64,000 nucleotides of DNA from Roseinatronobacter domitianus. Its GTDB lineage: Bacteria > Pseudomonadota > Alphaproteobacteria > Rhodobacterales > Rhodobacteraceae. Where the stretch lies: the NCBI RefSeq assembly GCF_023336755.1, contig NZ_JALZWP010000001.1:141959-205958 (forward strand), written 5' to 3'. This document shows positions 44,049 to 50,055 of this stretch, piece after piece. Made by a program: the position numbers and the translations under genes. The number at the start of each line of letters is the position of its first letter. The first letter of the stretch is position 1. The notes beneath the pieces were generated by a model, which saw nothing but the letters and a program-made list of their open reading frames with translations, ran no database searches and was not told where the DNA came from.

Positions 44049-45428
44049 CTACAACAGCAGCATCGTCGCCAGCCCCAGAAAGGCTGCGAAGCCCACCACA
44101 TCCGTCACCGTGGTCACGAACGTGCCGGAGGCCAATGCCGGATCAACGCCCAGGCGGTCCAGCAATGCGGGCAGACCAATGCCTGAAAGGCCCGCGACCA
44201 CAAGGTTTATGACCATCGCCGCCGCGATCACGCCAGCCAGCATCAGCGACCCGAACCAGACATAGCCCACCACGCCCATCACTAGGGCAAAGATCATGCC
44301 GTTGAACATTCCTACAAGGGTCTCGCGCCGGATAACCCGCCAGACATTCGCGCCGGTCAAGTCGCGTGTCGCCAGCCCGCGCACCGCGACGGCCATAGAT
44401 TGCGTGCCTGCATTGCCCCCCATCGACGCCACAATCGGCATCAGCACTGCCAGCGCGACAAGAGTTTGGATCGTGGCCTCAAAGACCGCGATGACCAGCG
44501 ACGCGATGATCGCTGTCACAAGGTTGACCCCCAGCCATGGCAGGCGCTGCCATGTGGTTTCCATGACCCCGTCTGACAAGCTGCCTTCGCCGGCCCCGGC
44601 CATGCGCAGCATGTCTTCTTCGTGTTCTTCATCCAGCACCGCCATGGCGTCGTCGATGGTGATGACACCGACAAGGCGTCCATTCGTATCCACCACGGGG
44701 GCGGAGATCAGATGATATTGGTTGAACGCATAGGCGACATCGCCTTCCTCTTCGTCCAGTTCAAAGCTGCGGAAACTGTCTTCGGTGACAGAGGACAATG
44801 CCGTGTTGCGATTTGAGGACAAGAGCCGTCCAAGGGTCACATATCCCGCCGGGGTATCGTCGGGCGTGACCAGGAAAACATGGTAGAACTGGTCGGGAAG
44901 CTCTTTGCTGGTGCGCATCATGTCGATGGTCTGGCCCACGGTCCAGTCCTGCGGCACCTTGACGAATTCCCGTTGCATCAAACGCCCGGCGGAATATTCC
45001 GGATAGCTGAGCGCCTGCCGTGCGGCATCGCGGTCATCTTCTTCCAGCGCATCAAGAATCGCGCTGTGTTGCGATTCGTCGAGGTCTTCCAGCAGGTCGA
45101 CCACATCGTCCGAATCCATGTCGCGGACAGCGTCGGCCAGAACGTCTGGCCGCAGGTAGCCGACCACCTCGTCGCGCAGTCCCTCGTCCAGTTCCGAGAG
45201 AATATCGCCATCGAACTCGGTGCCATACAGATGCACCAGGGCGCGGCGCGCGTCCGCCCCGATTTGTTCAAGGATGTCGGCAATATCCGCCGGGTGCAAC
45301 GGCTCGAACATCTCGAATATGCGTTGCGCGTCCTGTGCTTCGACTGCTTTCAGAACCTGTTTCAGATACCCTGAATCCAGATCGTAGCCGTCTTTGTCAC
45401 GAAAGCCATCTGTTGGATCATTGGTCAT
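44049..45428 (-). CDS. mgtE: magnesium transporter MgtE
   Basis: A 459-residue Mg2+ channel. It has a cytosolic N domain of repeats rich in Asp (LHPADIADILEQIG, DSDDVVDLLEDLDESQ), two CBS domains (about 140-265) that sense intracellular Mg2+, and five transmembrane helices carrying PIVASMGGNAGTQSMAVAVRG, the pore signature. Two tandem ATGs (45431, 45428) follow GGGGAGG; 45428 has the better spacing. Confidence 0.93.
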   Translation of the reverse strand: MTNDPTDGFRDKDGYDLDSGYLKQVLKAVEAQDAQRIFEMFEPLHPADIADILEQIGADARRALVHLYGTEFDGDILSELDEGLRDEVVGYLRPDVLADAVRDMDSDDVVDLLEDLDESQHSAILDALEEDDRDAARQALSYPEYSAGRLMQREFVKVPQDWTVGQTIDMMRTSKELPDQFYHVFLVTPDDTPAGYVTLGRLLSSNRNTALSSVTEDSFRSFELDEEEGDVAYAFNQYHLISAPVVDTNGRLVGVITIDDAMAVLDEEHEEDMLRMAGAGEGSLSDGVMETTWQRLPWLGVNLVTAIIASLVIAVFEATIQTLVALAVLMPIVASMGGNAGTQSMAVAVRGLATRDLTGANVWRVIRRETLVGMFNGMIFALVMGVVGYVWFGSLMLAGVIAAAMVINLVVAGLSGIGLPALLDRLGVDPALASGTFVTTVTDVVGFAAFLGLATMLLL

Positions 45429-45636
45429 CATGGCCTCCCCGAGGTTGCGGAACACGCGGGCTGTCTACAGGCTTTGCCGAGAAAGTCGATTGCCCTTGCC
45501 TCGAAATGAGTGGTCACTTCCCTGTGTTGCCCAAAAACAAGCATCGTGGACCGCCCGATTTTCCCGATTGCCGGGCCGTGCGTCTTGCAGGGCGGCGGGG
45601 CGCGGCCTAAGTCTGATGAAACGATTGGAGTTGCCT

Positions 45637-47478
45637 ATGTCCCTGACCCCCTCTGCCCGCTATCCGCAACCGGCTTTTGATCTTGACCGCCCCAAGGGCA
45701 GACAGGATCTGGGCGATCTGCCCGTTTGGGATTTTTCCAGCCTGTATGCCGCGCCGGATGCGCCGGAAGTCGCCCGTGATTTCGAATGGCTTGAGCAGGA
45801 ATGTTCCAGCTTTGCCGCCGATTACGAAGGCAAGCTTGCCGGGTCGGATGCCGCCAGCTTGTTGAACTGCGTGACCCGGTATGAGCAGATTGAACAGGTT
45901 GCCGGGCGGCTGATGTCGTTTTTCGGGCTGCGCTATTACCAGAACACGGTCGATCCCGCCCGCGCCAAGGCCATGTCCGATGCGCAGGACCGTGTGACCA
46001 CGGCCACGACCCCGCTGGTGTTCTTCGCGTTGGAGCTGAACCGTATTCCCGATGCGGAATTCGACGCCAAGCTGGATGCGAATCCCGATCTGGCGCGGTA
46101 TCGCCCGGTATTCGAGCGGATGCGCGCCATGCGCCCGCATCAATTATCCGACGAATTGGAGAAATTCCTGCACGATCAGTCCACCGTCGGCGCGGCTGCG
46201 TGGAACCGCTTGTTCGATGAAACCATGGCGGGGCTGGAATTTCCGGTAGAGGGAGAGGACGAACCGCTTGGGCTGGAATCCACGCTGAACCTGCTGACTG
46301 ATCGCGACCGCGACCGCCGCGAAGCGGGTGCGCGGGCGCTTGCCGAAGCGTTCGGCGCGAATATCCGGCTGTTTGCGCGGGTGCATAATACGCTCGCCAA
46401 GGAAAAAGAAATCGAGGATCGCTGGCGCAAAATGCCCAGCCCGCAGCATGGGCGGCATCTGGCCAACCATGTCGAACCCGAAGTTGTGCAAGCGTTGCGC
46501 GATGCGGTTGTCGCGGCCTATCCGAAGCTGTCGCACCGCTATTACGCGCTGAAAGCCAAGTGGCTGGGGCTGGACGAATTGCAGGTCTGGGACCGCAACG
46601 CGCCGCTGCCAACCGAAGCCGCGCGCACGATAGCCTGGCCAGAGGCGCAGGATATGGTGCTGGATGCCTATGCCGGGTTTTCACCCAAGCTGGCCGATCT
46701 GGCGGCACCTTTTTTCGAGCGTGGCTGGATTGATGCCGCCGTCACACCGGGCAAGGCACCCGGCGCCTTTGCCCATCCCACCGTGACCGACGCGCACCCG
46801 TTCGTTATGCTGAACTACCTGGGCAAGCCGCGTGACGTGATGACGCTGGCGCATGAACTGGGGCACGGGGTGCATCAACGATTGGCCGCGGGGCAGGGGG
46901 AGTTACTGTCTTCGACCCCGCTGACGCTGGCGGAAACCGCCAGTGTCTTTGGCGAAATGCTGACCTTCCGCCGGATGCTGGCCAAGGCCTCCACCAAGGA
47001 AGAACGCAAGACCCTGCTGGCTGGCAAGGTAGAGGACATGATTAACACCGTGGTCCGCCAGATCGCGTTTTACGATTTCGAATGCAAGCTGCACGACGCG
47101 CGGCGCGGCGGGGAGTTGACGCCCGACGACATTAACGCGCTGTGGATGAGCGTGCAGGCCGAAAGCCTTGGGCCGGTCTTTACCTATATGGAGGGGTATG
47201 AAACCTTCTGGTCCTACATCCCGCATTTCGTGCATTCGCCGTTTTACGTTTACGCCTATGCCTTCGGCGACGGCTTGGTGAACGCGCTTTATGCGGTTTA
47301 CGAAGAACAGCCCGAGGGCTTTCAGGACAAGTATTTCGAAATGCTGGCCGCAGGCGGGTCCAAGCACCACAAAGACCTGTTGGCCCCGTTCGGGCTGGAT
47401 GCATCGGACCCCGCTTTCTGGGATAAGGGTCTGAGCATGATCGCAGGCTTCATCGACGAATTGGAAGCGATGGAGTGA
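45637..47478 (+). CDS. pepF: oligoendopeptidase F, M3 family
   Basis: A 613-residue cytosolic zinc peptidase. The metal motif HELGHG falls near residue 406, followed by a conserved Glu in LTLAETASVFGEM. The N-terminal part (WDFSSLYAAPDAPEVARDF) is the family's helical lid. It degrades peptides of about 5-20 residues. TTGGAG, 7 bases from the ATG at 45637, decides the start; an in-frame ATG at 45616 is weaker. A hairpin begins 1 base after the stop. Confidence 0.93.
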   Translation: MSLTPSARYPQPAFDLDRPKGRQDLGDLPVWDFSSLYAAPDAPEVARDFEWLEQECSSFAADYEGKLAGSDAASLLNCVTRYEQIEQVAGRLMSFFGLRYYQNTVDPARAKAMSDAQDRVTTATTPLVFFALELNRIPDAEFDAKLDANPDLARYRPVFERMRAMRPHQLSDELEKFLHDQSTVGAAAWNRLFDETMAGLEFPVEGEDEPLGLESTLNLLTDRDRDRREAGARALAEAFGANIRLFARVHNTLAKEKEIEDRWRKMPSPQHGRHLANHVEPEVVQALRDAVVAAYPKLSHRYYALKAKWLGLDELQVWDRNAPLPTEAARTIAWPEAQDMVLDAYAGFSPKLADLAAPFFERGWIDAAVTPGKAPGAFAHPTVTDAHPFVMLNYLGKPRDVMTLAHELGHGVHQRLAAGQGELLSSTPLTLAETASVFGEMLTFRRMLAKASTKEERKTLLAGKVEDMINTVVRQIAFYDFECKLHDARRGGELTPDDINALWMSVQAESLGPVFTYMEGYETFWSYIPHFVHSPFYVYAYAFGDGLVNALYAVYEEQPEGFQDKYFEMLAAGGSKHHKDLLAPFGLDASDPAFWDKGLSMIAGFIDELEAME

Positions 47479-47528
47479 TATAGCGCCCCCCGCGCCACCT
47501 GTGTTGACGCGCGGCGTGGGGGGCTATA
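47479..47528. other. long hairpin after pepF overlapping the metZ promoter
   Basis: Starting 1 base after the pepF stop, TATAGC (47479-47484) pairs with GCTATA (47523-47528), continuing through a C-run (47486-47490) opposite a G-run (47518-47522). There is no T-run after it, so it is at best a weak terminator. It includes the -35 and most of the -10 of the next promoter. Confidence 0.6.
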
Positions 47529-47530
47529 AT
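47504..47530 (+). promoter_or_regulatory. sigma-70 promoter of metZ
   Basis: TTGACG (47504-47509) and a perfect TATAAT (47525-47530) are separated by 15 bases, slightly short. Transcription would start near 47537, about 20 bases before the SAM-II aptamer. Confidence 0.65.
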
Positions 47531-47554
47531 CAGGCGTATGTGCGGCAGCGCCGC

Positions 47555-47610
47555 GCCGTGGCGATTTGTCACCCGATTGCGGGCCACGTTAATCCATCCG
47601 CTAAAGAGGT
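47555..47610 (+). ncRNA. SAM-II riboswitch
   Basis: The aptamer has helix P1 as CGTGGC (47557-47562) with GCCACG (47583-47588), the conserved GATTT just inside it, then TTAAT and GCTAAAGAGG in the 3' segment (47589-47609). ACC in the loop (47571-47573) can pair with GGT (47608-47610) for the pseudoknot. It binds S-adenosylmethionine. It lies upstream of metZ, with a terminator between, so SAM would reduce expression of this methionine gene. Confidence 0.9.
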
Positions 47611-47617
47611 CTGGGTC

Positions 47618-47651
47618 CAACCCCGGCCTACTGTAGGTTCGGGGGTTTTTT
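47618..47651 (+). terminator. terminator in metZ leader (riboswitch expression platform)
   Basis: AACCCCGG at the left arm pairs with the right CGGGGGTT arm, with an inner CCTAC/GTAGG stem, followed by six Ts at 47646-47651. Its left arm begins about 9 bases after the aptamer end. An antiterminator was not defined by eye, so the mechanism (transcription or translation control) is not proved. Confidence 0.8.
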
Positions 47652-47679
47652 ATGGCCCAATGGGCCGATAGGGGCTGAT

Positions 47680-48861
47680 ATGAGCCAGGACTGGAACACG
47701 CGCACCAAACTGGTGCATCAAGGCGCTCGCCGCAGCCAATATGGTGAAGTGGCCGAAGCCATCTACATGACCCAAGGGTTCGTCTACCCCACCGCCGAAG
47801 CCGCAGAGGCGCGCTTCCTGGGTACAGGCCCGGATGAGTTCATTTATGCGCGCTACGGCAACCCGACGGTTGCGGCCTTTGAAGACCGCATCGCCGCCAT
47901 CGAAGGCACCGAAGACGCGTTTGCCACCGCATCCGGCATGGCCGCCGTCTCTGGCGCGCTGATGTCGATGCTGCGCACGGGCGATCATGTGGTCGCGGCG
48001 CGGGCGCTGTTCGGGTCGTGCCTGTATGTTTTGGAAAACGTGCTGGCCCGCTACGGGGTAGAGGTGACGCTGATTGACGGCACCGATCTGGACGCTTGGC
48101 GCGGCGCGATCCGCCCGGATACCAAGGCGGTTTTCCTGGAATCCATATCGAACCCCACGCTGGAGGTGATCGACCTTGAGGGCGTGGCCAAACTGGCCCA
48201 TGCGGTCGGCGCAACGGTTGTGGTCGATAATGTTTTTGCAACGCCAGTGTTCAGCCGCGCGGTCCGCCTTGGGGCGGATGTGGTGATTTATTCGGCCACC
48301 AAACACATAGACGGGCAAGGCCGCGCGCTGGGCGGTGTGATTTGCGGCACGCGCGATTTTATTCGCGGCACGGTGGAGCCCTATCTGAAACATACCGGCG
48401 GGGCGCTGTCGCCTTTCAACGCGTGGATCATGCTGAACGGCATGACCACGATGGATTTGCGCGTGCGCGCTCAGGCCGCAACCGCGCAGGCCGTGGCAGA
48501 AGCGTTGCAGGGCGATGATCGGCTTTCGCGTGTGATCTATCCCGGCTTGCCCGAGCATCCGCAACATGGCATTGCCGCGGCGCAGATGCCGGGCTTTGGC
48601 ACCGTTTTGTCCTTTGATGTGGCCGGTGGGCAGGCAGCGGCATTTCGGTTGCTGAACGCGCTGAAAATTGCCGTCATCTCCAATAATTTGGGCGATGCGC
48701 GCACGATTGCGACGCACCCGGCCACGACCACGCATCAGCGACTGCCTGACGACCAGAAGGCGCTTTTGGGTATTACGCCGGGGCTGATCCGCCTGTCGAT
48801 CGGGCTGGAAGATACATCCGACCTGATTGCCGACCTGCGCGGGGCGCTTGGCGCGATTTGA
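47680..48861 (+). CDS. metZ: O-succinylhomoserine sulfhydrylase
   Basis: A 393-residue PLP enzyme of the Cys/Met metabolism family that makes homocysteine directly from O-succinyl- or O-acetylhomoserine and sulfide. PLP lysine in SATKHIDGQGR (about residue 207); TASGMAAVSGALMS and the FATPVFSRAVRLGADVV segment are typical. It might use the acetyl ester (metY-type), but size and motifs favour metZ. Controlled by an upstream SAM-II riboswitch. A weak AGGGG site precedes the start. Confidence 0.92.
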   Translation: MSQDWNTRTKLVHQGARRSQYGEVAEAIYMTQGFVYPTAEAAEARFLGTGPDEFIYARYGNPTVAAFEDRIAAIEGTEDAFATASGMAAVSGALMSMLRTGDHVVAARALFGSCLYVLENVLARYGVEVTLIDGTDLDAWRGAIRPDTKAVFLESISNPTLEVIDLEGVAKLAHAVGATVVVDNVFATPVFSRAVRLGADVVIYSATKHIDGQGRALGGVICGTRDFIRGTVEPYLKHTGGALSPFNAWIMLNGMTTMDLRVRAQAATAQAVAEALQGDDRLSRVIYPGLPEHPQHGIAAAQMPGFGTVLSFDVAGGQAAAFRLLNALKIAVISNNLGDARTIATHPATTTHQRLPDDQKALLGITPGLIRLSIGLEDTSDLIADLRGALGAI

Positions 48862-48963: not shown

Positions 48964-50055
48964 ATGAACGTGCATGTCCCCGGCCTAGAGCAGACCCCTT
49001 CGGAAGCAGAGGCGCAGGCGGCGCTGGAAACCTTGCGCCGTTTTGCCGATGGCGCGTCCGATGACGCCCGCGCGCGCGTTGAGGCGGCGGCAACCAGCCT
49101 GTTGCCAACTGTGGCTTATCCGGAATTGAGCCGCGATTACCCTGACGCGTTTCGCGCCGATGCCGTCTACAAGGCGGGCCTGCCGGATTTGCAGAACGGC
49201 CCTGCCAGCCTGATTGTGGGCGCGAAAGCCCCGATCCAGCATGTGGGCATTTCCAACTTCCGTCTGCCCATCCGCTACCACACGCGCGACAATGGCGATC
49301 TGACGCTGGAAACCTCTGTCACCGGGTCTGTCAGCCTGGAAGCAGAGAAGAAGGGCATCAACATGTCGCGCATCATGCGCAGCTTCTATGGCCACGCAGA
49401 GCGCACGTTCAGCGCCGACGTGGTGCGCGCGGCGCTGGACGACTACAAGGCCGATCTGGAAAGTTTTGACGCCCGCATCATGATGCGCTTCAGCTTCCCG
49501 GTGAAGGTGGAAAGCCTGCGCTCTGGCCTTCAGGGCTACCAGTATTACGACATCGCCATGGAAGTGGTGGACCGTGCGGGCGTGCGCCAGACCTTCATGC
49601 ATCTGGACTATGTCTATTCGTCGACCTGCCCATGCTCGCTGGAGCTAAGCGAACATGCGCGTGCCACGCGCGGACAACTGGCCACGCCGCATTCGCAGCG
49701 CTCGGTCGCGCGCATTTCGGTGCAAGTGCTGAATGGTGCTAAGCTGTGGTTCGAAGACCTGATCGACCTGTGCCGCGCTGCCGTGCCCACGGAAACGCAG
49801 GTCATGGTCAAGCGCGAGGATGAACAGGCGTTTGCCGAACTGAACGCTGCCAACCCGATTTTCGTGGAAGATGCCGCGCGCAGCTTTTGTGAGCAACTGG
49901 ACGCTGACCCGCGCATCGGGGATTTCCGGGTGCTGGCCAGCCATCAGGAAAGCCTGCACAGCCATGATGCGGTCAGCGTGCTGACACGGGGCGCGGCGTT
50001 TGATTCCGACAGTTTGGACCCACGCCTGTTCGCCAGCTTGTTCCATGTCGGCTGA
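48964..50055 (+). CDS. folE2: GTP cyclohydrolase FolE2 (type IB)
   Basis: A 363-residue enzyme that converts GTP to dihydroneopterin triphosphate, opening folate synthesis. The type IB features are visible: HVGISNFRLPI, the metal-region cysteine in YSSTCPCSLELSEH (about residue 220), and HSQRSVARISVQV. FolE2 is less zinc-dependent than FolE and often replaces it in bacteria. The ATG at 48964 follows a GGAAGGA site. No Zur box is evident in the short spacer from metZ. Confidence 0.93.
   Translation: MNVHVPGLEQTPSEAEAQAALETLRRFADGASDDARARVEAAATSLLPTVAYPELSRDYPDAFRADAVYKAGLPDLQNGPASLIVGAKAPIQHVGISNFRLPIRYHTRDNGDLTLETSVTGSVSLEAEKKGINMSRIMRSFYGHAERTFSADVVRAALDDYKADLESFDARIMMRFSFPVKVESLRSGLQGYQYYDIAMEVVDRAGVRQTFMHLDYVYSSTCPCSLELSEHARATRGQLATPHSQRSVARISVQVLNGAKLWFEDLIDLCRAAVPTETQVMVKREDEQAFAELNAANPIFVEDAARSFCEQLDADPRIGDFRVLASHQESLHSHDAVSVLTRGAAFDSDSLDPRLFASLFHVG

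Follow-up and report, generated by a model that had tools for sequence, protein, structure and literature searches.

The gene metZ of Roseinatronobacter domitianus is preceded by a leader that an initial annotation took for a complete SAM-II riboswitch unit with its own promoter and terminator. The locus raises the question of whether it is such a switch and, if so, by which pairing the aptamer could act on the terminator. We analysed the leader within its window, by which we mean the whole stretch of DNA under study (64,000 nucleotides). A search with the Rfam model RF00521 (SAM-II, SAM_alpha) bears out the aptamer assignment: it matches positions 47548-47625 of the forward strand with an E-value of 2.8e-10 and 57.4 bits, where the gathering score is 36. 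This match exceeds chance; besides it, just two tRNAs reach an Rfam gathering score in the 64-kb window. The SAM-II core motifs listed in the initial annotation are all found in the sequence (Table 1). The P1 stem carries conserved flanks, GATTTG and one of the GTTAA type, and the window holds a pseudoknot made of ACC/GGU and GCGG/CCGC; the latter helix was absent from the initial description. We take this pseudoknot to be of the H type and its helix name to be P2. The aptamer lies ahead of a gene of methionine/SAM synthesis. The product of this gene passes the cut-off of TIGR01325, which confirms its naming as metZ; against NF005696, an identically named model with a stricter cut-off, it scores too low (584.1 of 675). 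The MetZ relatives number at least 441; of the 80 best, the closest belong to Roseibaca ekhonensis (89%) and, closer still, Roseibaca sp. Y0-43 (91%). Roseibaca is a genus name that NCBI today files under Roseinatronobacter (Paracoccaceae, Rhodobacterales). A FolE2 GTP cyclohydrolase gene comes after metZ (48964-50052; NF010200, 292.3 bits, cut-off 215), and 25 nt separate the -35 element from the end of an M3 oligoendopeptidase gene (45394-47478; TIGR02290, 627.8 bits, cut-off 561.7).

Table 1. Features of the metZ leader and gene, with positions in the window and the evidence for each
Feature	Position	Strand	Evidence
-35 element TTGACG	47504-47509	+	TTGAC conserved upstream of family leaders
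-10 region: TATAAT 47525-47530 (spacer 15), overlapping TAATCA 47527-47532 (spacer 17)	47525-47532	+	
P0 hairpin GTGCGGC-AGC-GCCGCGC next to P1; predicted to sit at the 5' end or close to it	47540-47556	+	genus leaders
P1 5' strand CGTGGC	47557-47562	+	RF00521 alignment; 100% of cells paired in A1
GATTT	47563-47567	+	sequence
Pseudoknot P2 5' strand ACC, partner GGU 47608-47610	47571-47573	+	paired in 90.8% of A1 cells; invariant in two of its three pairs
Pseudoknot P2 5' strand GCGG, partner CCGC 47598-47601	47579-47582	+	100% of cells paired in A1
P1 3' strand GCCACG	47583-47588	+	RF00521 alignment; A1 pairing
TTAAT	47589-47593	+	sequence
GCTAAAGAGG	47600-47609	+	sequence
Switch strand GGUCUGGG	47608-47615	+	GGU is the pseudoknot 3' strand (bound form); antiterminator 5' strand (free form)
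Antiterminator 3' strand CCC(C)GGCC, the terminator 5' arm	47621-47628	+	duplex and A1 pairing
Intrinsic terminator CCCCG..CCTA / TAGG..CGGGG, then U6	47621-47651	+	-14.9 kcal/mol; relatives' terminators
Post-terminator hairpin GGCCC-AAT-GGGCC (GGCCCAATGGGCC)	47654-47666	+	stems at same place in relatives
Shine-Dalgarno-like AGGGG	47670-47674	+	read from sequence
metZ, O-succinylhomoserine sulfhydrylase, ATG at 47680	47680-48861	+	TIGR01325, 536.9 bits, cut-off 510.05

RF00521 matches the genome of origin once and none of 14 control genomes. Among 149 family genomes, the genome of origin included, 118 have a match with an E-value of at most 0.001, and 117 exceed the cut-off; the remaining 31 gave no match at E 0.001. 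The 117 leaders comprise that of the window, 30 loci and 86 more. A MetZ homologue lies on the same strand and in the same stretch beside every parsed leader (108 of 108), a count that covers 108 of 119 stretches; of the 11 unparsed ones, two are below the cut-off, and nine were recovered for the terminator count only. The genus-leader set consists of 30 distinct parsed leaders (29 of the genus and L047); L216, L035 and L040, which were not parsed, lie outside it. Alignment A1 contains 29 distinct leaders, namely that of the window, 27 of congeners and L047, which comes from another genus; L212, the same leader as L042, was left out because its P1 pattern was apparently matched inside the P0 hairpin. 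In A1, P1, both pseudoknot helices and the terminator are paired in 97.4% of 580 cells. Since these pairs hardly vary, A1 yields no covariation evidence for them, and neither the pseudoknot nor the terminator has a two-sided change among these close relatives; what supports the pairs of the aptamer and the terminator is the match to the Rfam model, together with the U tract. Taken as a whole, the leader has an unexceptional folding energy (z -1.17; 22 of 200 shuffles as good).

The promoter proposed in the initial annotation, TTGACG and TATAAT at a spacing of 15, is present with a spacer of exactly that length, and its TTGAC is conserved, but the register of the -10 element in the relatives corresponds to a 17-nt spacer. 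Across 181 distinct 100-nt upstream regions, TTGAC occurs 184 times against 12.8 expected from shuffles. Of these occurrences, 134 sit 35-38 nt ahead of the GTGG of P1; the distance in the window is 54. When the sequences were aligned on TTGAC, position +23 was a T in 56 and position +24 an A in 52 of 63 sequences (TTGACN-17-TA). These columns cover 63 of the 181 sequences because TTGAC was required to lie 38-75 nt before P1, and 118 of the 184 occurrences lie at 35-37. Since the relatives follow this register, TAATCA is at least as likely a -10 element as TATAAT with its 15-nt spacer, and either register would be possible. A strict -10 scan (A at 2, T at 6) found a score of at least 9 in 6 of 186 upstream regions compared to 15.0 in shuffles, suggesting that the relatives overall lack a consensus TATAAT. 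The promoter was not listed by a simple scanner, as that scanner takes spacers of 16-18 nt only.

The leader has an intrinsic terminator ahead of the gene, as a transcriptional riboswitch should, and the six Ts that had been assigned to it are in place: the hairpin spans 47621-47644 and is followed by one G and then by T6 at 47646-47651. For the segment 47619-47652, with -14.9 kcal/mol and a z of -1.94, an equal or better energy was reached by 6 of 200 shuffles; the hairpin is bulged and is not on the list of the simple scanner. By a rule that asks for a hairpin of -6 kcal/mol or better adjoining a U tract, 105 of 117 family leaders have a terminator. No U-tract terminator was found by that rule in the other 12, though the aptamer is present, and in those the expression platform may have moved to translation (L003, L007, L011, L014, L029, L116, L122, L152, L153, L176, L178 and L181). 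The palindrome GGCCCAATGGGCC noted between terminator and ribosome site was also recovered. A post-terminator stem of at least 5 bp occurs in 26 of 99 leaders, that of the window among them, against 4.5 expected, and 59 of the 99 have no such stem of at least 4 bp; four further leaders of the 103 had no start site by the rule used. Similar GGCC-rich stems are visible, uncounted, in many of the listed genus leaders. In L186, tandem units of ~28 nt containing GACCCGAAGGGTC lie between the terminator and the gene start.

What could connect aptamer and terminator is a pairing that was absent from the initial description. The GGUC at 47608-47611, whose GGU is the pseudoknot 3' strand, can pair with GGCC at 47625-47628; extended by the following U and GGG, this strand is complementary to CCC C GGCC at 47621-47628, the 5' arm of the terminator. 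Folded alone, this antiterminator (47606-47628) has no unusual stability (-9.9 kcal/mol; z -1.08; matched by 31 of 200 shuffles). Its seven pairs are formed in 203 of 203 cells of A1, with 29 leaders including that of the window; only 1 of 500 shuffles scored as high, and every slid register pairs fewer cells. Two-sided changes in A1 are a C-G to G-C and a G-C to C-G, both in L047 alone, so covariation within the genus rests on one-sided changes, which are U-G to U-A in four leaders and C-G to U-G in one.

For the family, we used duplexes computed for each sequence of 103 leaders. A MAFFT alignment of 43 leaders (A2), in which the antiterminator partner is the terminator loop, was rejected for pair counts because it misplaces the GG of the pseudoknot strand. 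L193 and L027, with an unsuitable or weak hairpin call, were left out of this test; L155, whose terminator is doubtful, was kept. Native duplexes have a mean of -9.24 kcal/mol compared to -8.20 kcal/mol when partners were permuted with kinship retained (0 of 5000 as low), and to -7.00 kcal/mol with shuffled terminator arms. Native partners keep this advantage over permuted ones in each of two subsets, the 71 leaders whose core is GGUC (0 of 5000) and the 32 that have a different one (31 of 5000). Of the 103 best duplexes, 95 involve the pseudoknot GG. Ranked among all partners of its strand, the native one falls, by the median, within the best 30%, and the duplex is -5.0 or weaker in five leaders (L021, L129, L155, L160 and L196). 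The preference for the native pairing across the family is a tendency rather than a lock. A changed core is often accompanied by a changed partner: GGACG/CGUCC in L132, GGCC/GGCC in L138 and L161, GGCCAGGG/CUCUGGCC in L143, GGUCG/CGACC in L175 and AGAGGUG/CACCUCU in L189. That strand and partner change together across the family supports, at the level of sequence, a pairing that would be able to couple SAM binding to termination.

We computed equilibrium folds of growing transcripts beginning at 47538, once leaving the pseudoknot strands free and once blocking them, a constraint imposed to mimic SAM. In the transcript ending at 47628, the antiterminator has a probability of 0.99 with the strand free and 0.00 with the pseudoknot strands blocked. 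In the free form it stays at 0.99 or above up to 47642, and in the blocked form the terminator reaches 1.00 at 47644. By computation, the antiterminator pairing thus excludes both the bound aptamer and the terminator. At 47644 the terminator is already favoured in the free form as well (0.91), and in the free leader to 47650 it stands at 0.52 compared to 0.36 for the antiterminator. The choice would have to fall during transcription, because the free long leader no longer favours the antiterminator; we infer such a co-transcriptional choice from the equilibrium folding of partial transcripts.

Judged by its sequence, the leader is a real, well-formed SAM-II terminator riboswitch ahead of metZ, with SAM binding and termination predicted. 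RNA polymerase would start near 47537-47540 and produce P0, P1 and the aptamer. With SAM scarce, GGUCUGGG (47608-47615) would pair with 47621-47628 once that segment is made, and the antiterminator would hold the 5' arm of the terminator, allowing readthrough into metZ. With SAM plentiful, the pseudoknot would be locked, with GGU 47608-47610 taken by ACC 47571-47573; the antiterminator could then not form, and the terminator would fold ahead of U6, leaving a leader RNA of ~110 nt. The switch in the metZ leader most likely stops transcription early when S-adenosylmethionine is plentiful, and it is very probable that metZ is switched off in this way, through transcription termination by a SAM-II riboswitch. 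Two strands that compete for GGUC would give SAM-II control through termination an exact, testable switch; apart from this pairing and a genus-specific 5' helix, the locus is a matter of routine annotation.

The Sargasso Sea SAM-II riboswitch has the same aptamer architecture as the metZ leader. There, SAM is thought, in passages of Scheuer et al. (PMC9373788), to hide the ribosome site, whereas the metZ leader has a terminator. If the aptamer likewise acted mainly on translation here, the terminator would be constitutive. Translational SAM-II switches have been described, the terminator of Sinorhizobium meliloti metA was not predicted to be SAM-responsive in that part of the account (PMC9373788), and 12 of 117 relatives have no U-tract terminator. 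However, the Shine-Dalgarno-like sequence lies ~60 nt 3' of the pseudoknot strand and past the terminator, whose 5' arm pairs with that very strand, and the other 105 leaders do carry terminators, making a mainly translational action improbable. A decayed or non-binding SAM-II relic ahead of metZ is still less probable: the leader differs in a few places from the commonest sequence (ACCCGATTG in place of ACCGGATTG), yet five other A1 leaders agree with it, and its 57.4 bits and its intact P1, pseudoknot, terminator and antiterminator argue against decay.

The riboswitch leader of the window carries one further element, the 5' hairpin P0, which did not figure in the initial description. The distance from TTGAC to P1 in the window exceeds the usual 35-38 nt by ~16-19 nt, and the surplus is the P0 hairpin. 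Long leaders number 22 in the genus-leader set, and every one comes from the genus (leaders L001 and L200-L228 considered). In 19 of them, compared to 2.6 expected, a hairpin of 4 bp or more runs right up to P1; with two G-U pairs allowed, a P0-type hairpin is present in 20, compared to 2.9 expected. The sequence of P0 varies while its pairing is kept: the third pair is G-C in three, U-A in three, C-G in 12, U-G in one and G-U in one. Leader length rises with P0 length, and the spacing from the promoter to the first helix is nearly constant. The distance minus the P0 length comes to 35-39 nt in 20 of 20 leaders, with a spread of 1.32 compared to 3.39 when lengths were permuted (0 of 5000). This near-constancy suggests that P0 takes up the stretch from the expected start to P1. 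Among the eight short leaders, six have no P0-type hairpin, L219 has a weak match and L212 is apparently misparsed. We also considered P0 strands (GGCC, UGACC) as partners of GGUC; by eye this fits some relatives and does not fit the window, and it was rejected.

As a tentative reading, which we hold to be somewhat less likely than not, most members of the genus (Roseinatronobacter/Roseibaca) would have a SAM-II leader that gained a 5'-terminal P0 running from the start to P1 and stacked on P1, and P0 may tune the kinetics of the switch or protect two transcripts, the terminated leader RNA and the mRNA of metZ, against decay at their 5' ends. Its role as a stabiliser of the 5' end or an aid to aptamer folding is a guess in either case. 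If true, this reading would make the leader a new variant of the SAM-II leader, with a small genus-specific 5' helix whose influence, if any, on RNA stability or switching is open to measurement. That the leader is mainly a stable trans-acting small RNA, with control of metZ secondary, is scarcely credible with a MetZ homologue beside each of the 108 parsed leaders, and we know of no target for the metZ leader RNA in trans. The idea draws on the metZ leader of S. meliloti, which yields the ~100-nt RZ RNA and for which passages of one paper discuss trans functions (PMC9373788), and on the thought that P0 could protect the 5' end.

Among the top matches in the open literature, no title concerned a SAM-II leader of this group, and for an extra SAM-II hairpin the only match, by title and abstract, was on chemical shifts. 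Termination is described, in parts of two sources, as a common mode for the SAM-II class that has been little tested (PMC2258182, PMC9373788). A SAM-II terminator switch ahead of metZ is already known from S. meliloti, where, in passages of Scheuer et al. (2022, PMC9373788), SAM-dependent termination was predicted and an RNA of ~100 nt (sRNA RZ) was seen. The two leaders share the aptamer class, the gene and a predicted SAM-dependent terminator; set against that part of the account (PMC9373788), the Rhodobacterales leader adds an antiterminator backed by comparison, as well as P0, the antiterminators of the two not being matched base by base. For the SAM-II or metA motif class, Corbino et al. 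(2005, PMC1273637) described promoters close upstream of P1 and, for many members, putative terminators. That motif and our leader share P1 with the pseudoknot, a promoter near consensus that precedes P1 by a few nt, a putative terminator and a proposed OFF switch; in contrast, P1 of the window begins ~17-20 nt downstream of the predicted start, as P0 stands in between. In part of Leyn et al. (2014, PMC4239095), SAM_alpha was confined, within a proteobacterial set, to Rhizobiales and Rhodobacterales, chiefly before metY; as here, it precedes the gene, there called metY, in 26 of 30 alphaproteobacterial genomes, and that part describes its targets, whereas we describe the expression platform. 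Compared with these systems, the metZ leader is one ordinary representative of a known family, to which our analysis adds a comparison-backed switching pairing and a minor lineage-specific hairpin.
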